From assembly GCA_017860255.1 (NCBI GenBank), contig JAFNAR010000006.1:1-64000 (forward strand): DNA of 64,000 bases, given 5' to 3'. Of this stretch, positions 55,083 to 61,140 are shown one piece after another. Below the pieces are notes generated by a model. It did not search any database. It saw only the letters and a program-made list of their open reading frames with translations, and was not told the origin of the DNA. This stretch comes from Bacteroidota bacterium (lineage in GTDB: Bacteria > Bacteroidota > Bacteroidia > Bacteroidales > P3). Numbering within the stretch: the first letter of the stretch is position 1; each line of letters begins with the position of its first letter. Made by a program: the position numbers and the translations under genes.

Positions 55083-55182
55083 CAATATATTTTACAAAAA
55101 CTCCATTTAACCAACAGAATAATATGATAAAGATAAGAAATACAGAGGAATAAAGAAGAAAAACCAACTTTATTCTTAAAAG

Positions 55183-55276
55183 TTTAGGGAGGAAGTGCAT
55201 TTAGGGAGGCAGTTTTATACCTTTATATATATATTAAGATAGGAAATTGCCTCCCTGCTTCCCTACCTCCCTAAAT
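55183..55276. repeat. Hairpin repeat, left copy (HU/VirE module)
   Basis: TTTAGGGAGG at 55183-55192 is inverted as CCTCCCTAAA at 55266-55275. Inside, AGGGAGGCAGTTT pairs with AAATTGCCTCCCT with one wobble. On the right arm the words CCTCCCT, CTTCCCT and CCTCCCT follow each other. A closely related element in the same orientation lies at 60922-61013. The rest of 55277-55617 has further CTCC words and an AT-rich leader of the HU gene with TATTTTTG at 55451-55458. Confidence 0.85.
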
Positions 55277-55617
55277 CCTCATATTCTCCAAAAAACTCCC
55301 TGATTTTTTACGAAAAAGCTCCATCTTTCTCCAAAAAAAGTTTAGTTTTTTAAACATTATCTTTAGCTAAAGAAATTTCTCTGAACTTAATGTAAAACGT
55401 TGTTTAAATGAATAATAGGTAAAACAGTAAAAATAGTTAGGAAATCAACGTATTTTTGTTTAGAATGTCAAATAAAAGGGTTTAAAAGTTTGGTAAATAG
55501 CATAATATGTTGTATCTCTGTAATAGATAAAATGAAAAAAATAGAAGTTTTCATTTTAATTTTAAACCAAATTAAAAAACCTCGCGATAGTGATTTGAAG
55601 GTCAATCGCAAAAAATT

Positions 55618-56049
55618 ATGTTGAATTACACAACAATCAAAAAGAAAATCTCCGTTGGTGCTGCTCCTGGAGAAAAGTACTTGGCTACTATTTCAAGAAA
55701 TGGTATTATGAGTCAAGAACAGTTAATTGAAAGAATTTCCAGCGCTTCTGCATTGGCTGAAAATGACGTTTTGTCTGCTCTTCGTGCTTTGCAAGTTGTT
55801 ATCACTGATGCAACTATGAATGGAATTACAGTTCAATTAGACCAATTAGGTATCTTCACTCCTTACCTTAGTGCCAAAGCTATGCTTACTGCTGAAGAAG
55901 TTGATGCAACAACTATTAGAGGCGTTAGAGTGAATTTCCGCCCTAATGTAAGGTTTAAAAACAAACTCAAAACCACAAATTACGAATATCGTAATCCAAT
56001 GCCTAAAGGTTTGGTTTTGCCTGTGGATGATACTCCTGTTGCACCGTAA
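55618..56049 (+). CDS. HU-like DNA-binding protein (Bacteroidota type)
   Basis: A 143-residue HU/IHF fold protein of the Bacteroidota HU-like group. The sequence MLNYTTIKKKISVGAAPGEKYLATISRNG is the family start; MSQEQLIERISSASALAENDVLSALRAL is the helix bundle, and GITVQLDQLGIFTP followed by RGVRVNFRPNVRFKN is the DNA-binding arm. Such proteins bend DNA. It is commonly found beside VirE-type genes in this phylum, as here. Its transcript ends at a strong hairpin 40 bp downstream. Confidence 0.93.
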   Translation: MLNYTTIKKKISVGAAPGEKYLATISRNGIMSQEQLIERISSASALAENDVLSALRALQVVITDATMNGITVQLDQLGIFTPYLSAKAMLTAEEVDATTIRGVRVNFRPNVRFKNKLKTTNYEYRNPMPKGLVLPVDDTPVAP

Positions 56050-56053
56050 TCCT

Positions 56054-56090
56054 TAGTTAATGATTAATTGTTAACTGTTAAAGGTTAATT
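56054..56090. repeat. TTAATGATTAATTG word repeat
   Basis: A run of TTAATGATTAATTG and AAGGTTAATTG words directly after the HU gene, related to the repeats at 18342 and 54663. Confidence 0.45.
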
Positions 56091-56091
56091 G

Positions 56092-56128
56092 TAAGGGCGA
56101 GCTTAATTATGCTTGCCCTTATTTTTTT
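56092..56128 (+). terminator. Terminator of the HU-like gene
   Basis: TAAGGGCGAGC (56092-56102) pairs with GCTTGCCCTTA (56111-56121) with one G-T pair and an 8-base loop, then seven T residues (56122-56128). Confidence 0.85.
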
Positions 56129-56289
56129 GTATTATTTTTTCTTTGCTTTGCAAAGTGTTTGCTGTGCGGTATATATTATGCCGCACGACAGATTCTATAA
56201 GAAAATACAATTTAAACTTTGTCGTTTTGCATAGTAAAGAAATATAAGCTATTTTTTCAAAAAATGTTTTTAAATTAGGAATAATTATA

Positions 56290-56297
56290 TACATTTG
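56290..56297 (+). promoter_or_regulatory. Candidate -7 element for the transcript containing the structured region
   Basis: TACATTTG matches TAnnTTTG and lies 140 bp upstream of the hairpin region at 56430. A good -33 element is not visible. Confidence 0.4.
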
Positions 56298-56424
56298 CAA
56301 AATAGATAATACACAAAACAAAAAAATATTATATAGAAACAAACAATAGTTATTAACTAGACATATTATAGCGTTTTAGCTTTTCTTTCTGACTAAAAAT
56401 TTGGCGATTAAAAGTAAGAGAAAA

Positions 56425-56533
56425 GATTAAGTTTAGAATGCTCACGCTTACGGCGTGGGCTTAACTTATCTTAGCTCTTACAGGTAGCCAAATACCTTAG
56501 TCAGCGAGATACTTCTAAGTACCACGCTTTTTT
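56425..56533 (+). ncRNA. Candidate structured RNA or attenuator ending in a T-tract
   Basis: A GC-richer island in a 550-bp gap. GCTCACGC and GCGTGGGC form a hairpin with a 5-base loop (about 56440-56460). Outside it AGAT(T)AAGTT pairs with AACTTATCT. Then CTTAG occurs twice and can pair with a single CTAAG in exclusive ways, and AGGTA pairs with TACCT. CCACGC directly before seven T residues (56527-56533) could pair with the GCGTGG of the first hairpin, so a switch between an early hairpin and a terminator is possible. No known RNA family is recognised. The rest of 56129-56424 shows nothing else. Confidence 0.5.
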
Positions 56534-56597
56534 TATGTCAAAAAAATTAAAGAATTATGGAAGAATTTGACACTTTTTTTACCCAAATATCTTAGAA

Positions 56598-57662
56598 ATG
56601 GAAGGGGAAATAGACAGAGATCCATTTACATTTATTGCTGATAACTGCAAAATATGGTATGAAGGTGAATGTATTAAGGAAATAAATAGTAAAATTAATA
56701 TTACTGGAAATATAAACCTATTCAGTAGTGTACTACGAAATAAAATGCAGGTATCAATTGACAATTCGGAAATATCAGATTATATAGCAGATAGACTATT
56801 ATTTAAGGAAATATCAAGATTAAATGATAGGATTCTTTGGAGTAATAATTTTTTAAATGATTACGAAGGTGCAGAATATAAAAATATGTCTTTATTCTTT
56901 AGTTCAGGAGTACTTTCTAGAATTTCTATAAATCGTAGTAATCCTTTGTATATGATTGAATTTAATTCAACTCAACAAGAGGGAAAAATAGATGATGAGG
57001 ATACAATAAACATATTAAATGAAAAAGCTTCTGCTCAAGGTGATAAACAAGGTATGAGTTTAGGTTCTTGGGGAGCTTTAATGGGAGGAATTAATCTTAG
57101 CAATTTTATTTTCAAATCAAATAGCCATCAAAGATATGAGAATAATCAACTTAATGGTCAAATTCAAGAAAATTGTCACCGTTCTATTATTATTAAAGAA
57201 AATATAAATGGCTGTGAAGGTTATATTATTAATAACGGAGAAGGTTATATAGTATCTATAATTAATGATTCTGATAGTAATTTGTACTCAGGAAACAAAA
57301 CAATGTCTCCAAAACCAATGAAAATCATTAGTCAATCAGAAGATAAAATTGTTTTAAGAGGCTATAAATGTAAAGCAGTTACTCCATTTGGAGCTATGGA
57401 TTTTAGTGGAGATGATTATGGAATGACTATTTCGTTAAAAAATAATAAAGTAGATAGTTGCACTTTACATATGCATGACAGGAATATTAATATTAAATAC
57501 ATGGATATAAAGCAAGAAAATAAAGTAATTCACGAAAGTAAACCATTAAATATTCCAGTATATACAAAGAAAGAAAATAATAATAATAATTTTTTAATAG
57601 GTATTACTGTAATTCTTATAATTGCTATAATTCTTATAATAATATTCTTATCGAAGAATTAG
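56598..57662 (+). CDS. Unrecognised 354-aa protein with C-terminal membrane anchor
   Basis: No family recognised. No signal peptide. Residues 1-325 are hydrophilic and rich in Asn, Ile and Lys, with a GMSLGSWGALMGGINLSNF patch near 155-173 and a late YGMTISLKNNKVDSCTLHMHD segment that reads as beta strands. After a run of five asparagines the last 22 residues (FLIGITVILIIAIILIIIF) form a single membrane helix, so it is a tail-anchored protein with the bulk in the cytoplasm. It is more AT-rich and uses more AAT/ATA codons than the core genes around it, in line with transfer. It lies inside the HU/VirE module. Confidence 0.75.
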   Translation: MEGEIDRDPFTFIADNCKIWYEGECIKEINSKINITGNINLFSSVLRNKMQVSIDNSEISDYIADRLLFKEISRLNDRILWSNNFLNDYEGAEYKNMSLFFSSGVLSRISINRSNPLYMIEFNSTQQEGKIDDEDTINILNEKASAQGDKQGMSLGSWGALMGGINLSNFIFKSNSHQRYENNQLNGQIQENCHRSIIIKENINGCEGYIINNGEGYIVSIINDSDSNLYSGNKTMSPKPMKIISQSEDKIVLRGYKCKAVTPFGAMDFSGDDYGMTISLKNNKVDSCTLHMHDRNINIKYMDIKQENKVIHESKPLNIPVYTKKENNNNNFLIGITVILIIAIILIIIFLSKN

Positions 57663-57727
57663 TTTACTATAATTTATCCTTCTCTTTCAAAATAAATTAC
57701 TAATTTAGCCCCATAAAAATAAAAGTT

Positions 57728-58495
57728 ATGGGAATGAAATACTTTGATACTATTGATGAAGAATATTTACGTTTAATACTTAAAGAATATCCATCAATAG
57801 AAGAAAAAGAAGAAACTGCAAGAATCTTAAAAGCAAAAAATAAGAAATATAAAGATTGTGATTTAGACAATTTATATAAAGAATTACCTAATAATGTGTT
57901 ATATGATATTTATGTATATATGATCAATATTCTTGAATTTAAGGATAAAATCTTAATGTATAAATTGTATAAGCAACAATATGAGGATGGTATTGGTATA
58001 AACAAAAGTCAAGATTTCAAACAGTTCTTTAGGGAGTTATCAATTATTATTGATAAAGACGATATAAAGAAATTAAACGATTTCAACCTCTTTGTTGATA
58101 GTAAGCTATCAAATAATAATATTACTCCTACCCAAAATACAACCGCTCAAACTCAATCTGAAATTGATGTAGTAGCCTTAAAAAATTTATTTAAACCTGT
58201 TTATACTTCTGATTCTGTAGATTCTGTTTTTAATCAGCTTATTAGAGATTTAAGTACTGGATTACCTTCCTATAATAAGAGTGATATTACAGCAATTGCC
58301 TATGTTATATATGAAAGTGGAACTCTGCATAATAACACAAGACCTAATACATTCATAGCATTTCTAAGAATATTTTGCTCAATATTAAATATTACAGCTG
58401 TTCCCACAACTAAACGTTGTAAAGTGCAAAATAGAATTGAAAGATTTTCATCAACATTCTATTATTTGAATGCTAATAATGCTAATCTAGCATAG
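57728..58495 (+). CDS. Unrecognised 255-aa protein
   Basis: A 255-residue soluble protein of unknown family. The N-terminal half is charged and helical (EEYLRLILKEYPSIEEKEETARILKAKNKKY). A polar linker (NNNITPTQNTTAQTQSE, about 133-150) leads to a C-terminal helical domain with FNQLIRDLSTGLP, AIAYVIYESGTLHNNTRPNTFIAFLRIFCSILNI and ending ERFSSTFYYL. That ending is reminiscent of small C-terminal domains in Bacteroidota mobile-element proteins, an impression only. Directly downstream of the tail-anchored protein and just before VirE-N. Confidence 0.7.
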   Translation: MGMKYFDTIDEEYLRLILKEYPSIEEKEETARILKAKNKKYKDCDLDNLYKELPNNVLYDIYVYMINILEFKDKILMYKLYKQQYEDGIGINKSQDFKQFFRELSIIIDKDDIKKLNDFNLFVDSKLSNNNITPTQNTTAQTQSEIDVVALKNLFKPVYTSDSVDSVFNQLIRDLSTGLPSYNKSDITAIAYVIYESGTLHNNTRPNTFIAFLRIFCSILNITAVPTTKRCKVQNRIERFSSTFYYLNANNANLA

Positions 58496-58617
58496 ATATT
58501 TCAACTAATCCCCTTAAATTCCCTTTTTACAATCCCCCTTTTTATCCTAATTCATTAATTATCTTTAAGGTGCTGAAATTCAAGAATCCCCATTTTCCGC
58601 ACCCTTTTAGTTTAACA

Positions 58618-58625
58618 TACCTTTG
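58618..58625 (+). promoter_or_regulatory. Candidate -7 element of the virE-N / vapE pair
   Basis: TACCTTTG lies 44 bp before the ATG at 58669 and fits TAnnTTTG. A small hairpin (CTAAGC with GCTTAG) follows at about 58632-58649 in the presumed leader. Confidence 0.5.
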
Positions 58626-58668
58626 CAATCGCTAAGCAATAGGGCTTAGTAAAATTAAATTATCTTCT

Positions 58669-59739
58669 ATGATAGTAAAATCAAAGGAAAGAGTTGCTGC
58701 CTCTTCAACAGCAAGCCAAGAAGAAACCAAGTTTCAACTATGGCAAAACAAGTGTGCTGTTAACTGCTACACTGAAATTACAGCTACTCAATTAGTTGAG
58801 AAACTTAAAACCAATGCAAGCAATCCAAAGTTCTTGGAGATGCGTGAACAGTATAAAACATTCATTGAAAACGGGAGCATTGAAAATAAAGCTAAATATG
58901 ACAAGTTAAAAGGCGAGTTAGAACTATTAACAATTCCTGCAAAAGTGCACCCTCGAAGACAAACAAAGGATATTATTGGAGTAAATAATTTAGTCGTCAT
59001 GGACTTTGATCTAAAAGACAACCCATTTCTATTAACAGAATACGTCACCATTGTTGAAAAACTAAAACTTGACAAGAATGTCTTTATGCTTTTCAAATCA
59101 CCTAATGGTTTATGTCCTAAAGTTTTAGTTAAGGTAAACTTCTCTGAAGGCAGGGAAGAGATGTTGGATGATTTAGCACAATCTCGTGGGAAAACCGAAG
59201 ACAGAATAAATAATATAGAAACTCTTAAATATGAGTATAAAAAAGCACATCATGAAATAAGTCAATATATGAAGGATAACTACAATTTGGCTGCTGACAT
59301 GGCTGCTAACTACATTTTAGGACAAACCTATCTGTCGGCTGATAAAGATCCATACCTTAATGAAGAAAGTTCTTTCTTTGAACTTAAAGGAGTAGAGATG
59401 CCAATAAGAAAAGTAATTCTACCGGAAAATCAAACTTGCAACTCCACATATCAGACCTCAAACTATGAAATATTGTGGGAGATTGAGTGCTTTGTTAGTA
59501 AGTATCGTACGGGTAGGCACAATTTAACAATGCATATCACACTTCAAGCCACTTATTATAATATACCAAAAAATGATATTATTGATTACTGCTATCAGAG
59601 ATTTGGAGCAACAGACCATCCTTTGGCAGAGATCACCAGAACTGTTGATGATTTTTATGGGAAACCTTATCGTGGAACTCAATATACTATAAGGGAAGTA
59701 TATAGAAAGAAAAAATATAACAATTATTATGGATACTAA
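58669..59739 (+). CDS. VirE N-terminal domain protein (BT4734-like)
   Basis: A 356-residue protein with the VirE-N/BT4734-like domain. MDFD is at 111-114 and FKSPNG at 142-147, giving the acidic pair and loop of a primase-like nucleotidyl-transfer fold; the usual SPSGKGLK loop is changed to SPNGLCPK here. The rest (VEMPIRKVI, CFVSKYRTGRHNLTMHITLQA, DDFYGKPYRGTQYTIREVY) is the helical part that usually connects to the ATPase. In many relatives this domain and the ATPase are one protein; here the ATPase is a separate gene overlapping by 11 bp. Confidence 0.85.
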   Translation: MIVKSKERVAASSTASQEETKFQLWQNKCAVNCYTEITATQLVEKLKTNASNPKFLEMREQYKTFIENGSIENKAKYDKLKGELELLTIPAKVHPRRQTKDIIGVNNLVVMDFDLKDNPFLLTEYVTIVEKLKLDKNVFMLFKSPNGLCPKVLVKVNFSEGREEMLDDLAQSRGKTEDRINNIETLKYEYKKAHHEISQYMKDNYNLAADMAANYILGQTYLSADKDPYLNEESSFFELKGVEMPIRKVILPENQTCNSTYQTSNYEILWEIECFVSKYRTGRHNLTMHITLQATYYNIPKNDIIDYCYQRFGATDHPLAEITRTVDDFYGKPYRGTQYTIREVYRKKKYNNYYGY

Positions 59740-60919
59740 TCAAACAACACAACGAACAGAAACGGAGAGTATTCTTCATGTACTTAAATTAAGATTTCAG
59801 GTTAGGTATAATACTCGAACAAATGAGTTTGAGGTATTAGACAGACGCTATGCTCGGAAGGGCTGGAGAACTAGAAACTCCAGGATTGACAACTCTATTT
59901 TTCTACATCTAAAGAACTTAATATCTGACAGACCAGTTAACAAGCAGGATGTTGATATTCTCTTCACAAGCGAAGTAGAAGAATATAATGATATACACCA
60001 ATACTTCCAATCCATATCATGGGACAAGTCGGAAAAAGATTATATCCTAGAGTTGGCTAATACTGTTCAGTGCATAGACCAGGAATATTGGATTAAGGAG
60101 TTTAGAAACTGGTTAGTGCTTATGGTTGGCACTATGCTCAATACTGAGGAAGATATCTCTAATGGAACAACCATTGTCAACTCAACTATTCTAACCTTTA
60201 TTGGTAAGGGAGGAATTGGAAAAACCTATTGGTTTAACAAACTACTACCTCCTGTATTGCGAAAATATTTGAAGAATGGGTTAACAGACATTCGACATAA
60301 AGATGCAAATATTGCTTTGTCGAGGTATGCACTTATCAAGATTGATGAAATAGACACACTTAGCAAACAAGAAAAGGAGAAACTTGCTAAGATGGTTACA
60401 GATTACTCTATTGAGGAGAGGTTGGCTTATGAGAGATATGACTCCAAACTTGTTCGTATAGCTTCATTTTGTGCTACAACAAATAATGACGATTTTCTGC
60501 TGTCAGGAGCTCAAAGCAACAGAAGATACTCTATTCATGTTGTTAAATCATTGAATGCAGAGCATGGAATTGATTTAGACAAAGTGTTTGCACAAGCATA
60601 CTATCTATTCACAACTGGGCAATATGTTAATTCTCAGGAATATCACAAACAAAGATATGATTTGGTGAAGGAATACGAGCAAACTGATTTGGATTTCGAA
60701 ATTCTTTGCACGCATTTTGTTGAATGTGATGAATCTAATACTGAAAATTGGCTTTCAGCTTCAGAAGTATATCATCAGCTAAGAAGTAAAGGATATACTC
60801 TAAGCAAAGATAGTACTTCTTCAATAGGCAGATTACTAACAAGGCTACTAAAAGATACTAAAAACAAAAAGAAAAGCAATGGGGTGGTAAAATATAATAT
60901 TAGATTTGTTAACAAATAA
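59729..60919 (+). CDS. VapE/VirE family P-loop ATPase
   Basis: A 396-residue protein with a VirE-family (VapE-like) P-loop domain. Walker A is GKGGIGKT at 159-166, Walker B is KIDEID with D206/E207, and a sensor-like CATTNNDDFL follows, with NRRYSIHVV after it. This is the helicase-type domain of satellite and plasmid replication proteins, so together with the VirE-N primase-like protein it would form a primase-helicase. The N-terminal about 130 residues are the typical DRRYARKGWRTRNSR region. Ends 3 bp before the right hairpin repeat. Confidence 0.87.
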   Translation: MDTNQTTQRTETESILHVLKLRFQVRYNTRTNEFEVLDRRYARKGWRTRNSRIDNSIFLHLKNLISDRPVNKQDVDILFTSEVEEYNDIHQYFQSISWDKSEKDYILELANTVQCIDQEYWIKEFRNWLVLMVGTMLNTEEDISNGTTIVNSTILTFIGKGGIGKTYWFNKLLPPVLRKYLKNGLTDIRHKDANIALSRYALIKIDEIDTLSKQEKEKLAKMVTDYSIEERLAYERYDSKLVRIASFCATTNNDDFLLSGAQSNRRYSIHVVKSLNAEHGIDLDKVFAQAYYLFTTGQYVNSQEYHKQRYDLVKEYEQTDLDFEILCTHFVECDESNTENWLSASEVYHQLRSKGYTLSKDSTSSIGRLLTRLLKDTKNKKKSNGVVKYNIRFVNK

Positions 60920-60921
60920 TA

Positions 60922-61013
60922 TTTAGGGAAGATCTTTGTTTAGGGAAGCACTTTTATATCTTTATATATATTAAGGTATATAAGTGCTTCCCTACCTCCC
61001 TGCTTCCCTAAAT
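60922..61013. repeat. Hairpin repeat, right copy (HU/VirE module)
   Basis: TTTAGGGAAG at 60922-60931 is inverted as CTTCCCTAAA at 61003-61012. The inner TAGGGAAGCACTT pairs perfectly with AAGTGCTTCCCTA, extended by TATATCTT with AAGGTATA. Same order as the left copy at 55183-55276. Where the left copy has GGAGG/CCTCC this copy has GGAAG/CTTCC, so both arms changed together. Confidence 0.85.
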
Positions 61014-61046
61014 TTGTTAGGAAATTATCCCTCTTTTAAATCCTAA

Positions 61047-61140
61047 AACTCCTTCTTTTCCAAAAAAGTCACCGAATAAAATAAAAAAGTCGGCACTTAT
61101 TTTGAAAAAGTCGGTGTTTAATTTTAGAAAATAGAGACTT
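61047..61140. repeat. 21-bp-phased word array before uppS (array D)
   Basis: GTC in the context AAAAAAGTC recurs at 61068, 61089 and 61110, exactly 21 bp apart, followed by the inverse GAC at 61136. The first unit also forms TCACCG with CGGTG of the third. An earlier AAAACTCC unit fits the phase near 61047. It lies between the right hairpin repeat and the uppS promoter. Confidence 0.7.

Follow-up and report, generated by a model that had tools for sequence, protein, structure and literature searches.

Inverted iterons are associated with VapE helicase genes in Bacteroidia, and the module that carries such a gene between rbfA and uppS in the DNA analysed here is probably a small integrated replicon, with the hairpin directly behind vapE as the origin of its primase-helicase (pri-rep) pair. 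The window, by which we mean the whole 64,000-nucleotide stretch analysed (positions 1 to 64,000 of JAFNAR010000006.1, contig C63 in our numbering), comes from a 2.58 Mb genome of a Bacteroidota bacterium (GCA_017860255.1, here G000) in a genus that includes Bacteroidales bacterium UBA4893. By the strict test described below, 20 of 46 VapE genes are followed by inverted iterons, against 10 of 304 control ends of open reading frames (ORFs) in the same loci. Both hairpins of the module are built from such units around an AT-rich core, and sister modules occupy other chromosomal sites in two related species. In two congeners rbfA and uppS lie side by side with no module between them.

Anatomy of the module and its hairpins

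The module runs in the order left hairpin, HU-HIG gene, two orphan genes, BT4734-type primase, VapE helicase and right hairpin, and all of its reading frames are intact. An initial annotation, made from the letters alone, had named an HU-like gene, two orphans, a primase-like and a VapE-like gene, and family searches agree with it: the HU-HIG protein passed PF18291 with 81.4 bits (cut-off 26.2), the primase passed PF08800 with 32.3 bits (curated cut-off 22.4) and the helicase passed PF05272 with 78.7 bits (cut-off 25), with a P-loop, GKGGIGKT, in its translation. The features are:

55164..61137, no strand: stretch not matching the rbfA-uppS junction of G396/G394, which lacks the module, by sequence comparison
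55183..55276, no strand: left iteron hairpin; two units spaced by 7 bp, then an AT-rich core and three inverted units in a row
55618..56049, + strand: HU-HIG family DNA-binding protein, 143 aa (PF18291, E=7.3e-23; TIGR01201, E=1.1e-24)
56370..56545, limits approximate, + strand: candidate structured RNA, four copies in the genus
56598..57662, + strand: orphan gene, 354 aa, hydrophobic C-terminal stretch, cargo; no family over cut-off
57728..58495, + strand: orphan gene, 255 aa; no family over cut-off
58669..59739, + strand: BT4734-like (VirE_N) archaeo-eukaryotic-type primase, 356 aa (PF08800, E=1.3e-7)
59729..60919, + strand: VapE-like helicase, proposed replication initiator, 396 aa (PF05272, E=5.5e-22)
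60922..61013, no strand: right iteron hairpin, proposed origin; an AT-rich core flanked by inverted iterons

The left hairpin (94 bp) and the right hairpin (92 bp) match in 73 of 94 columns (78%) when aligned as direct copies; their local alignment score is 82, where the maximum among 2970 random 95-mers from the window was 27. The two palindromic copies of about 93 bp in the initial annotation are therefore real, and they lie where it had placed them, the left one 341 bp before the HU ATG and the right one 2 bp past the vapE stop. Each folds mainly as one long stem (-41.6 and -42.3 kcal/mol, RNA parameters). One arm holds two units and a 7-bp spacer, TTTAGGGAGG-N7-TTTAGGGAGG in the left copy and TTTAGGGAAG-N7-TTTAGGGAAG in the right; the opposite arm of both consists of three contiguous 8-bp units, (T/C)AGGGA(A/G)G, and the AT-rich core sits between the unit sets. 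The outer arms have indeed altered jointly between the two copies, as had been noticed, but the conclusion drawn from this, that the hairpin is conserved and not the sequence, is not supported in that form. The 8-bp unit is repeated directly inside a single arm, beyond what pairing requires, so that conservation of the unit accounts for the co-varying arms as well as pairing does. Rfam matches to MIR1888 and StyR-143 at the right hairpin were rejected, as both were far under the gathering score.

Motif I of the primase can be read as VVMDFD, and motifs II and III are unclear by eye in this copy (motif definition from PMC5862659). The VapE family profile matched PDB entry 7pds, named 'Similar to D. 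nodosus vapE', with E=2e-30. A single-sequence AlphaFold model of VapE was uninformative (mean pLDDT 42), and no relatives of this VapE were found in viral_contigs. Similarity of the 255-aa orphan to the genes in the same place in two sister modules was looked for and not found. The initial annotation had also reported no integrase, transposase or relaxase, and family searches of the five main ORFs found none (12 further ORFs of at least 40 aa, all of at most 102 aa, were not run). With the same coverage, no divergent regulator pair and no AlpA-like regulator was seen. No packaging or capsid gene was found in the module.

Inverted iterons behind VapE genes

To pass the strict test, a gene needed some non-palindromic 7-mer that occurs two or more times on both strands, no further than 300 bp from the stop codon; the other ORF ends of the same loci served as controls. 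One overlapping locus (L212) was left out, as was the G394 vapE of this family because of a run of N. The passes comprised 7 of the 11 VapE genes in the genus and 13 of the 35 outside it. Four of the ten positive controls lie in PF08800 primase loci (L204, L209, L215 and L218), and the control count without those four is 6/300 (Fisher p=6e-15); with L212 kept, the comparison is 20/47 against 10/307 (p=6e-13). A first, looser score gave 27/47 VapE ends and 49/307 controls, and the stricter test was preferred. Adjacent units are mostly 8-10 bp apart. When the 520 bp past the stop of 17 Bacteroidales VapE genes were read by eye, 11 showed direct repeats, an AT-rich stretch and the inverted word; the exceptions were L104, with direct copies only, L096 and L106, which were doubtful, and L095, L102 and L103, with none. 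The word itself varies by family, examples being GTTGCAGAT, GGTGAGGGA, GGGGGAAGA, GGTTATATC and CAACGGGA.

The arrangement also occurs on a circular plasmid record of 9.3 kb, in which three ATGACACCT units and inverted copies lie 300-390 bp behind a VapE gene. PF08800 primase genes were present in 46 of the 295 Bacteroidia genomes searched, and in two loci, L236 (from a Bacteroides finegoldii record) and L231 (a faecal contig), the region behind a BT4734-family gene passes the strict test. L231 is the only pass among four short faecal 'phage' records with a distant VapE, the other three having no inverted set by eye. A general presence of iterons behind BT4734 genes was considered and rejected, as only 4 of 32 PF08800 loci without a recognised VapE pass; the feature accompanies VapE-type partners and is not universal.

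G000 has a second pri-rep locus. On contig C27 (L228), a PF08800 primase (E=2.4e-14) is followed by a D5_N/DUF5906 helicase (E=5.6e-19), which matches PDB entries 7ola/7om0, named 'DNA primase' (E=1.5e-10). Directly behind this helicase, by eye, come AGTTAC-type units and then inverted AAGTAACTT units, with an AT-rich core separating the two sets. Beyond them the other strand carries the end of an HU gene that is truncated where the contig stops and is 87% identical over 30 aa to the window HU. From its layout we read L228 as a putative single-origin order rep-ori-HU. If the reading is right, the helicase was exchanged here, while the primase, the origin-like element and the HU gene were retained.

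Sister modules, solo hairpins and related repeats

In G396 and G394, whose RbfA is 99-100% identical to that of the window, rbfA and uppS adjoin, and the intergenic region contains a palindrome array and no module. The empty junction that the initial annotation had proposed looking for thus exists in two congeners. Identity of the window to this junction stops near 55163 and restarts near 61138. A sister module in G393 (L089), whose VapE is 75% identical to that of the window, likewise contains HU, pri and rep between two hairpins, and lies between a TonB-type gene and relA/spoT (both named from translations). The third copy, in G394, has a VapE 78% identical over the aligned part, its gene interrupted by a run of N, and a hairpin directly behind vapE; the HU gene nearby is of another type and divergent from a small helix-turn-helix (HTH) gene. 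Modules therefore occupy different chromosomal sites in three species. Of the further modules with such hairpins that the initial annotation had suggested searching for, the one in G393 has them at both ends, and in G394 one was seen only behind vapE. G394, with pri, rep and one hairpin, goes part of the way towards the case that the initial annotation had named as evidence against its view, relatives that have the genes and lack the end repeats.

To follow the hairpin further, a model (R2) was built from six copies, including the left hairpin, which itself scores 106 bits. In 11 genomes of the genus, scoring the best 150 candidates per genome and counting places at E<0.01, R2 finds nine places, five at modules with vapE and four with no vapE nearby, and so the hairpin is not confined to module ends. 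Two of the four, G000:C38 and G396:C14, precede an HU gene beside the same gene, read as KilA-N-like; the other two, G395:C16 (36.6 bits) and G398:C91 (40.5 bits), are weaker, with neither HU nor vapE seen. Matches at G000:C9 (E=0.088) and G398:C29 (E=0.07) were excluded as weak. The hairpin thus stands behind vapE in the window, G393 and G394, and before a window-like HU gene (HU identity 73-97%) in the window, G393, G000:C38 and G396:C14. G395 has a degraded solo hairpin next to the very relA-side flank at which the module sits in G393, and this copy could be a landing site or a scar.

Outside the genus the hairpin is rare. R2 matches with E<=0.001 occurred in 6 of 150 related genomes (best 26 candidates per genome), all of the same genus; a widely dispersed repeat was accordingly rejected, and repeats spread widely without the module, which the initial annotation had named as evidence against its view, were not found. 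Against 42 loci of other VapE genes, R2 gave one match in another family, L063, again behind vapE (E=0.0016; 0.12 on the opposite strand), and two further weak matches (E=0.1 and 0.56).

Other repeats and small genes were seen alongside these elements. G000 has 23 HU-HIG (PF18291) matches across its 2.58 Mb, some cut by contig ends, the module HU being one of them. By eye, about 12 of 18 HU-HIG genes (L031-L047) are preceded by an array of short palindromes with about 22 bp spacing, the palindrome being specific to the gene (L034:9661-9770, L035:9974-10031, L039:8181-8258 and L047:9295-9372, for example). A mechanical count without overlaps, within 450 bp, found arrays at 6 of 18 HU genes and 3 of 308 other ORFs (p=9e-7); all nine are intergenic, and a stricter scan gave six. 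Arrays specific to HU were rejected, as related arrays without HU genes occur at L111, L115 and L123, and the link to HU is only an enrichment. One palindrome family, AAAGATGCACATCTTT, is common to L111 (G394, before uppS), L157 (G396, in the same place) and L035 (G000, before an HU gene); these palindromes stand at different sites in different species, as if arrays had been exchanged between sites. In the genus elements L090, L091, L092, L093, L094, L095 and L098, an HTH-looking gene of 61-67 aa lies between the HU and primase-helicase genes; of four run against Pfam, only that of L091 was over cut-off (HTH_17). The RNA candidate of the module, about 180 nt with a core of ATGCTCACG..CGTGGGC, has three copies in G000 and one in G396. 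Its inner stems vary among copies yet pair by eye, the RNAalifold consensus is weak, no credible Rfam match was obtained, and in L237, L238 and L239 it precedes genes with signal-peptide-like starts.

The replicon model, its alternatives and its meaning

In our proposal the BT4734-type primase acts with the VapE helicase as a pri-rep pair, and their origin of replication is most likely the hairpin that immediately follows vapE. There VapE would bind the repeated unit (T/C)AGGGA(A/G)G to either side of the AT-rich core, the core would melt and the primase would prime synthesis. The arms would vary jointly because all units must suit one initiator. The initial annotation had suggested that the repeats could be origins, and the iteron units and the strict count behind VapE genes support this. 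A circular form would have a single origin, between rep and HU, and could join the chromosome at that origin via a chromosomal copy of the same palindrome; a circle joined in this way would give the order hairpin-HU-cargo-pri-rep-hairpin without an integrase. The left copy would then be explained, as the left and right places would be one hairpin on the circle, between rep and HU, as on C27. Such entry through the origin is possible but doubtful.

A number of observations weigh against the replicon reading. Twenty-six of the 46 VapE genes fail the strict test, including the G393 sister module, which fails because its units vary; the low pass rate of PF08800 loci without a recognised VapE (4/32) belongs here too, and the L228 units are too degenerate to pass. 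With one word taken per locus, a second iteron cluster is present in the window and G393 modules and in 0 of 9 other loci examined. Compared with G396 and G394, the sequence is also altered beyond the hairpins, for about 20 bp to the left and about 125 bp to the right, and the hairpins thus do not mark the exact ends of the inserted DNA. In G394, whose contig begins about 35 bases outside the vapE-side hairpin, none was seen on the left. The hairpin pair is direct in G000 (score 82 against 68) and inverted in G393 (138 against 46), which a single simple crossover cannot explain in both; the palindrome may permit either orientation. Recombination has also affected the flanks in G393: the TonB-type gene beside the module is 92% identical to that of G395 and 75-76% to those of G396, G000 and G394 (L153, L009), relA shows the opposite order (88% to G395 against 95% to the closest, G000 and G396), and these opposed affinities point to a break near the module.

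One other explanation for the data is that the hairpins are transposon-like ends or attachment-like sites acted on by a recombinase in trans, the module being a non-autonomous mobile unit with primase and helicase as cargo. Two copies do bracket the module in G000 and G393, a junction without the module exists, solo copies exist and, by eye, the outer arms in G393 resemble each other and the inner arms likewise. We nevertheless consider this unlikely: in G394 the hairpin was seen behind vapE only, in nine loci from other families clusters of the iteron word are limited to the region behind vapE, and the changed sequence reaches past both hairpins. No target duplication is apparent by eye, and repeats at the exact edges, as in a terminal-repeat transposon, were not seen against G396 and G394, where the flank may have changed later. 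Of the initial suggestion of a non-autonomous unit borrowing its recombinase, what stands is a replication module in which no recombinase was found and whose chromosomal site differs among three species; the borrowed recombinase belongs to this unlikely alternative.

The module could also be a remnant, decaying or domesticated, in which case the hairpin would be an inert repeat between genes, comparable to the palindrome arrays of the genus, which do occur in intergenic regions. The weak primase match (E=1e-7) and the HU-plus-hairpin copies without vapE would fit, but the reading frames are intact, the core of the hairpin is conserved across species that share only 69-75% identity in VapE, strong hairpin matches are few, and we find a remnant quite improbable. 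That the hairpins work in RNA, as strong terminators or processing stems whose place behind vapE reflects gene ends, seems highly improbable. A stem as stable as this (about -42 kcal/mol), immediately past a stop codon, would suit a terminator, which needs, however, neither direct unit repetition in an arm nor an AT-rich core; other gene ends of the same loci seldom show iterons (10/304), and the left copy sits upstream of HU.

The replicon reading has parallels in known systems. A pri-rep-ori order is reported for phage-inducible chromosomal islands (PICIs), both SaPIs and E. coli PICIs, and pri-rep-ori segments drove plasmid replication, according to PMC6092414, which also mentions P4 alpha and its cognate site. 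In its anatomy the module resembles PICIs: pri and rep are followed by a candidate ori in which an AT-rich core separates two sets of iterons. Unlike PICIs, the module has a BT4734-family primase, an HU-HIG gene and a second origin-like copy at the other end, and neither an integrase nor a packaging or capsid gene was found in it. We take 7pds and 7ola/7om0 to be SaPI proteins. The alpha primase-helicase of phage P4 binds short iterons in two cis regions (ori/crr); the module differs in its proteins and in having split genes, and no integrase or phage functions were found in it. The integrase and attachment site that mark a PICI were not found (five main ORFs; others of at most 102 aa), and because no integrase was found the module is not filed as a PICI or a P4 element. 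By analogy it would work like a pri-rep-ori replicon outside the phage satellites. The Bacteroides genes BT4734 and BF3469 share its primase domain, there often in one long frame with a helicase.

Among the open-access texts available, no origins behind Bacteroidota VapE/BT4734 genes were found described, and the accessible parts of papers naming BT4734 or BF3469 describe no origin at those genes; no described role for PF08800 primase genes was found in the literature. The inverted-iteron, origin-like element behind VapE genes suggests such a function, in small replicons of the PICI/P4 type. Perhaps these form a widespread Bacteroidota class of small integrase-less replicons, HU-HIG included, which enter via their own iteron origin and leave a solo origin when lost, an extension that we regard as rather unlikely to hold in full. 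The association raises the question of how an integrase-less element enters chromosomes. It also suggests that the binding word of each initiator may be predictable from sequence alone, and it provides candidate origins for Bacteroides vectors.

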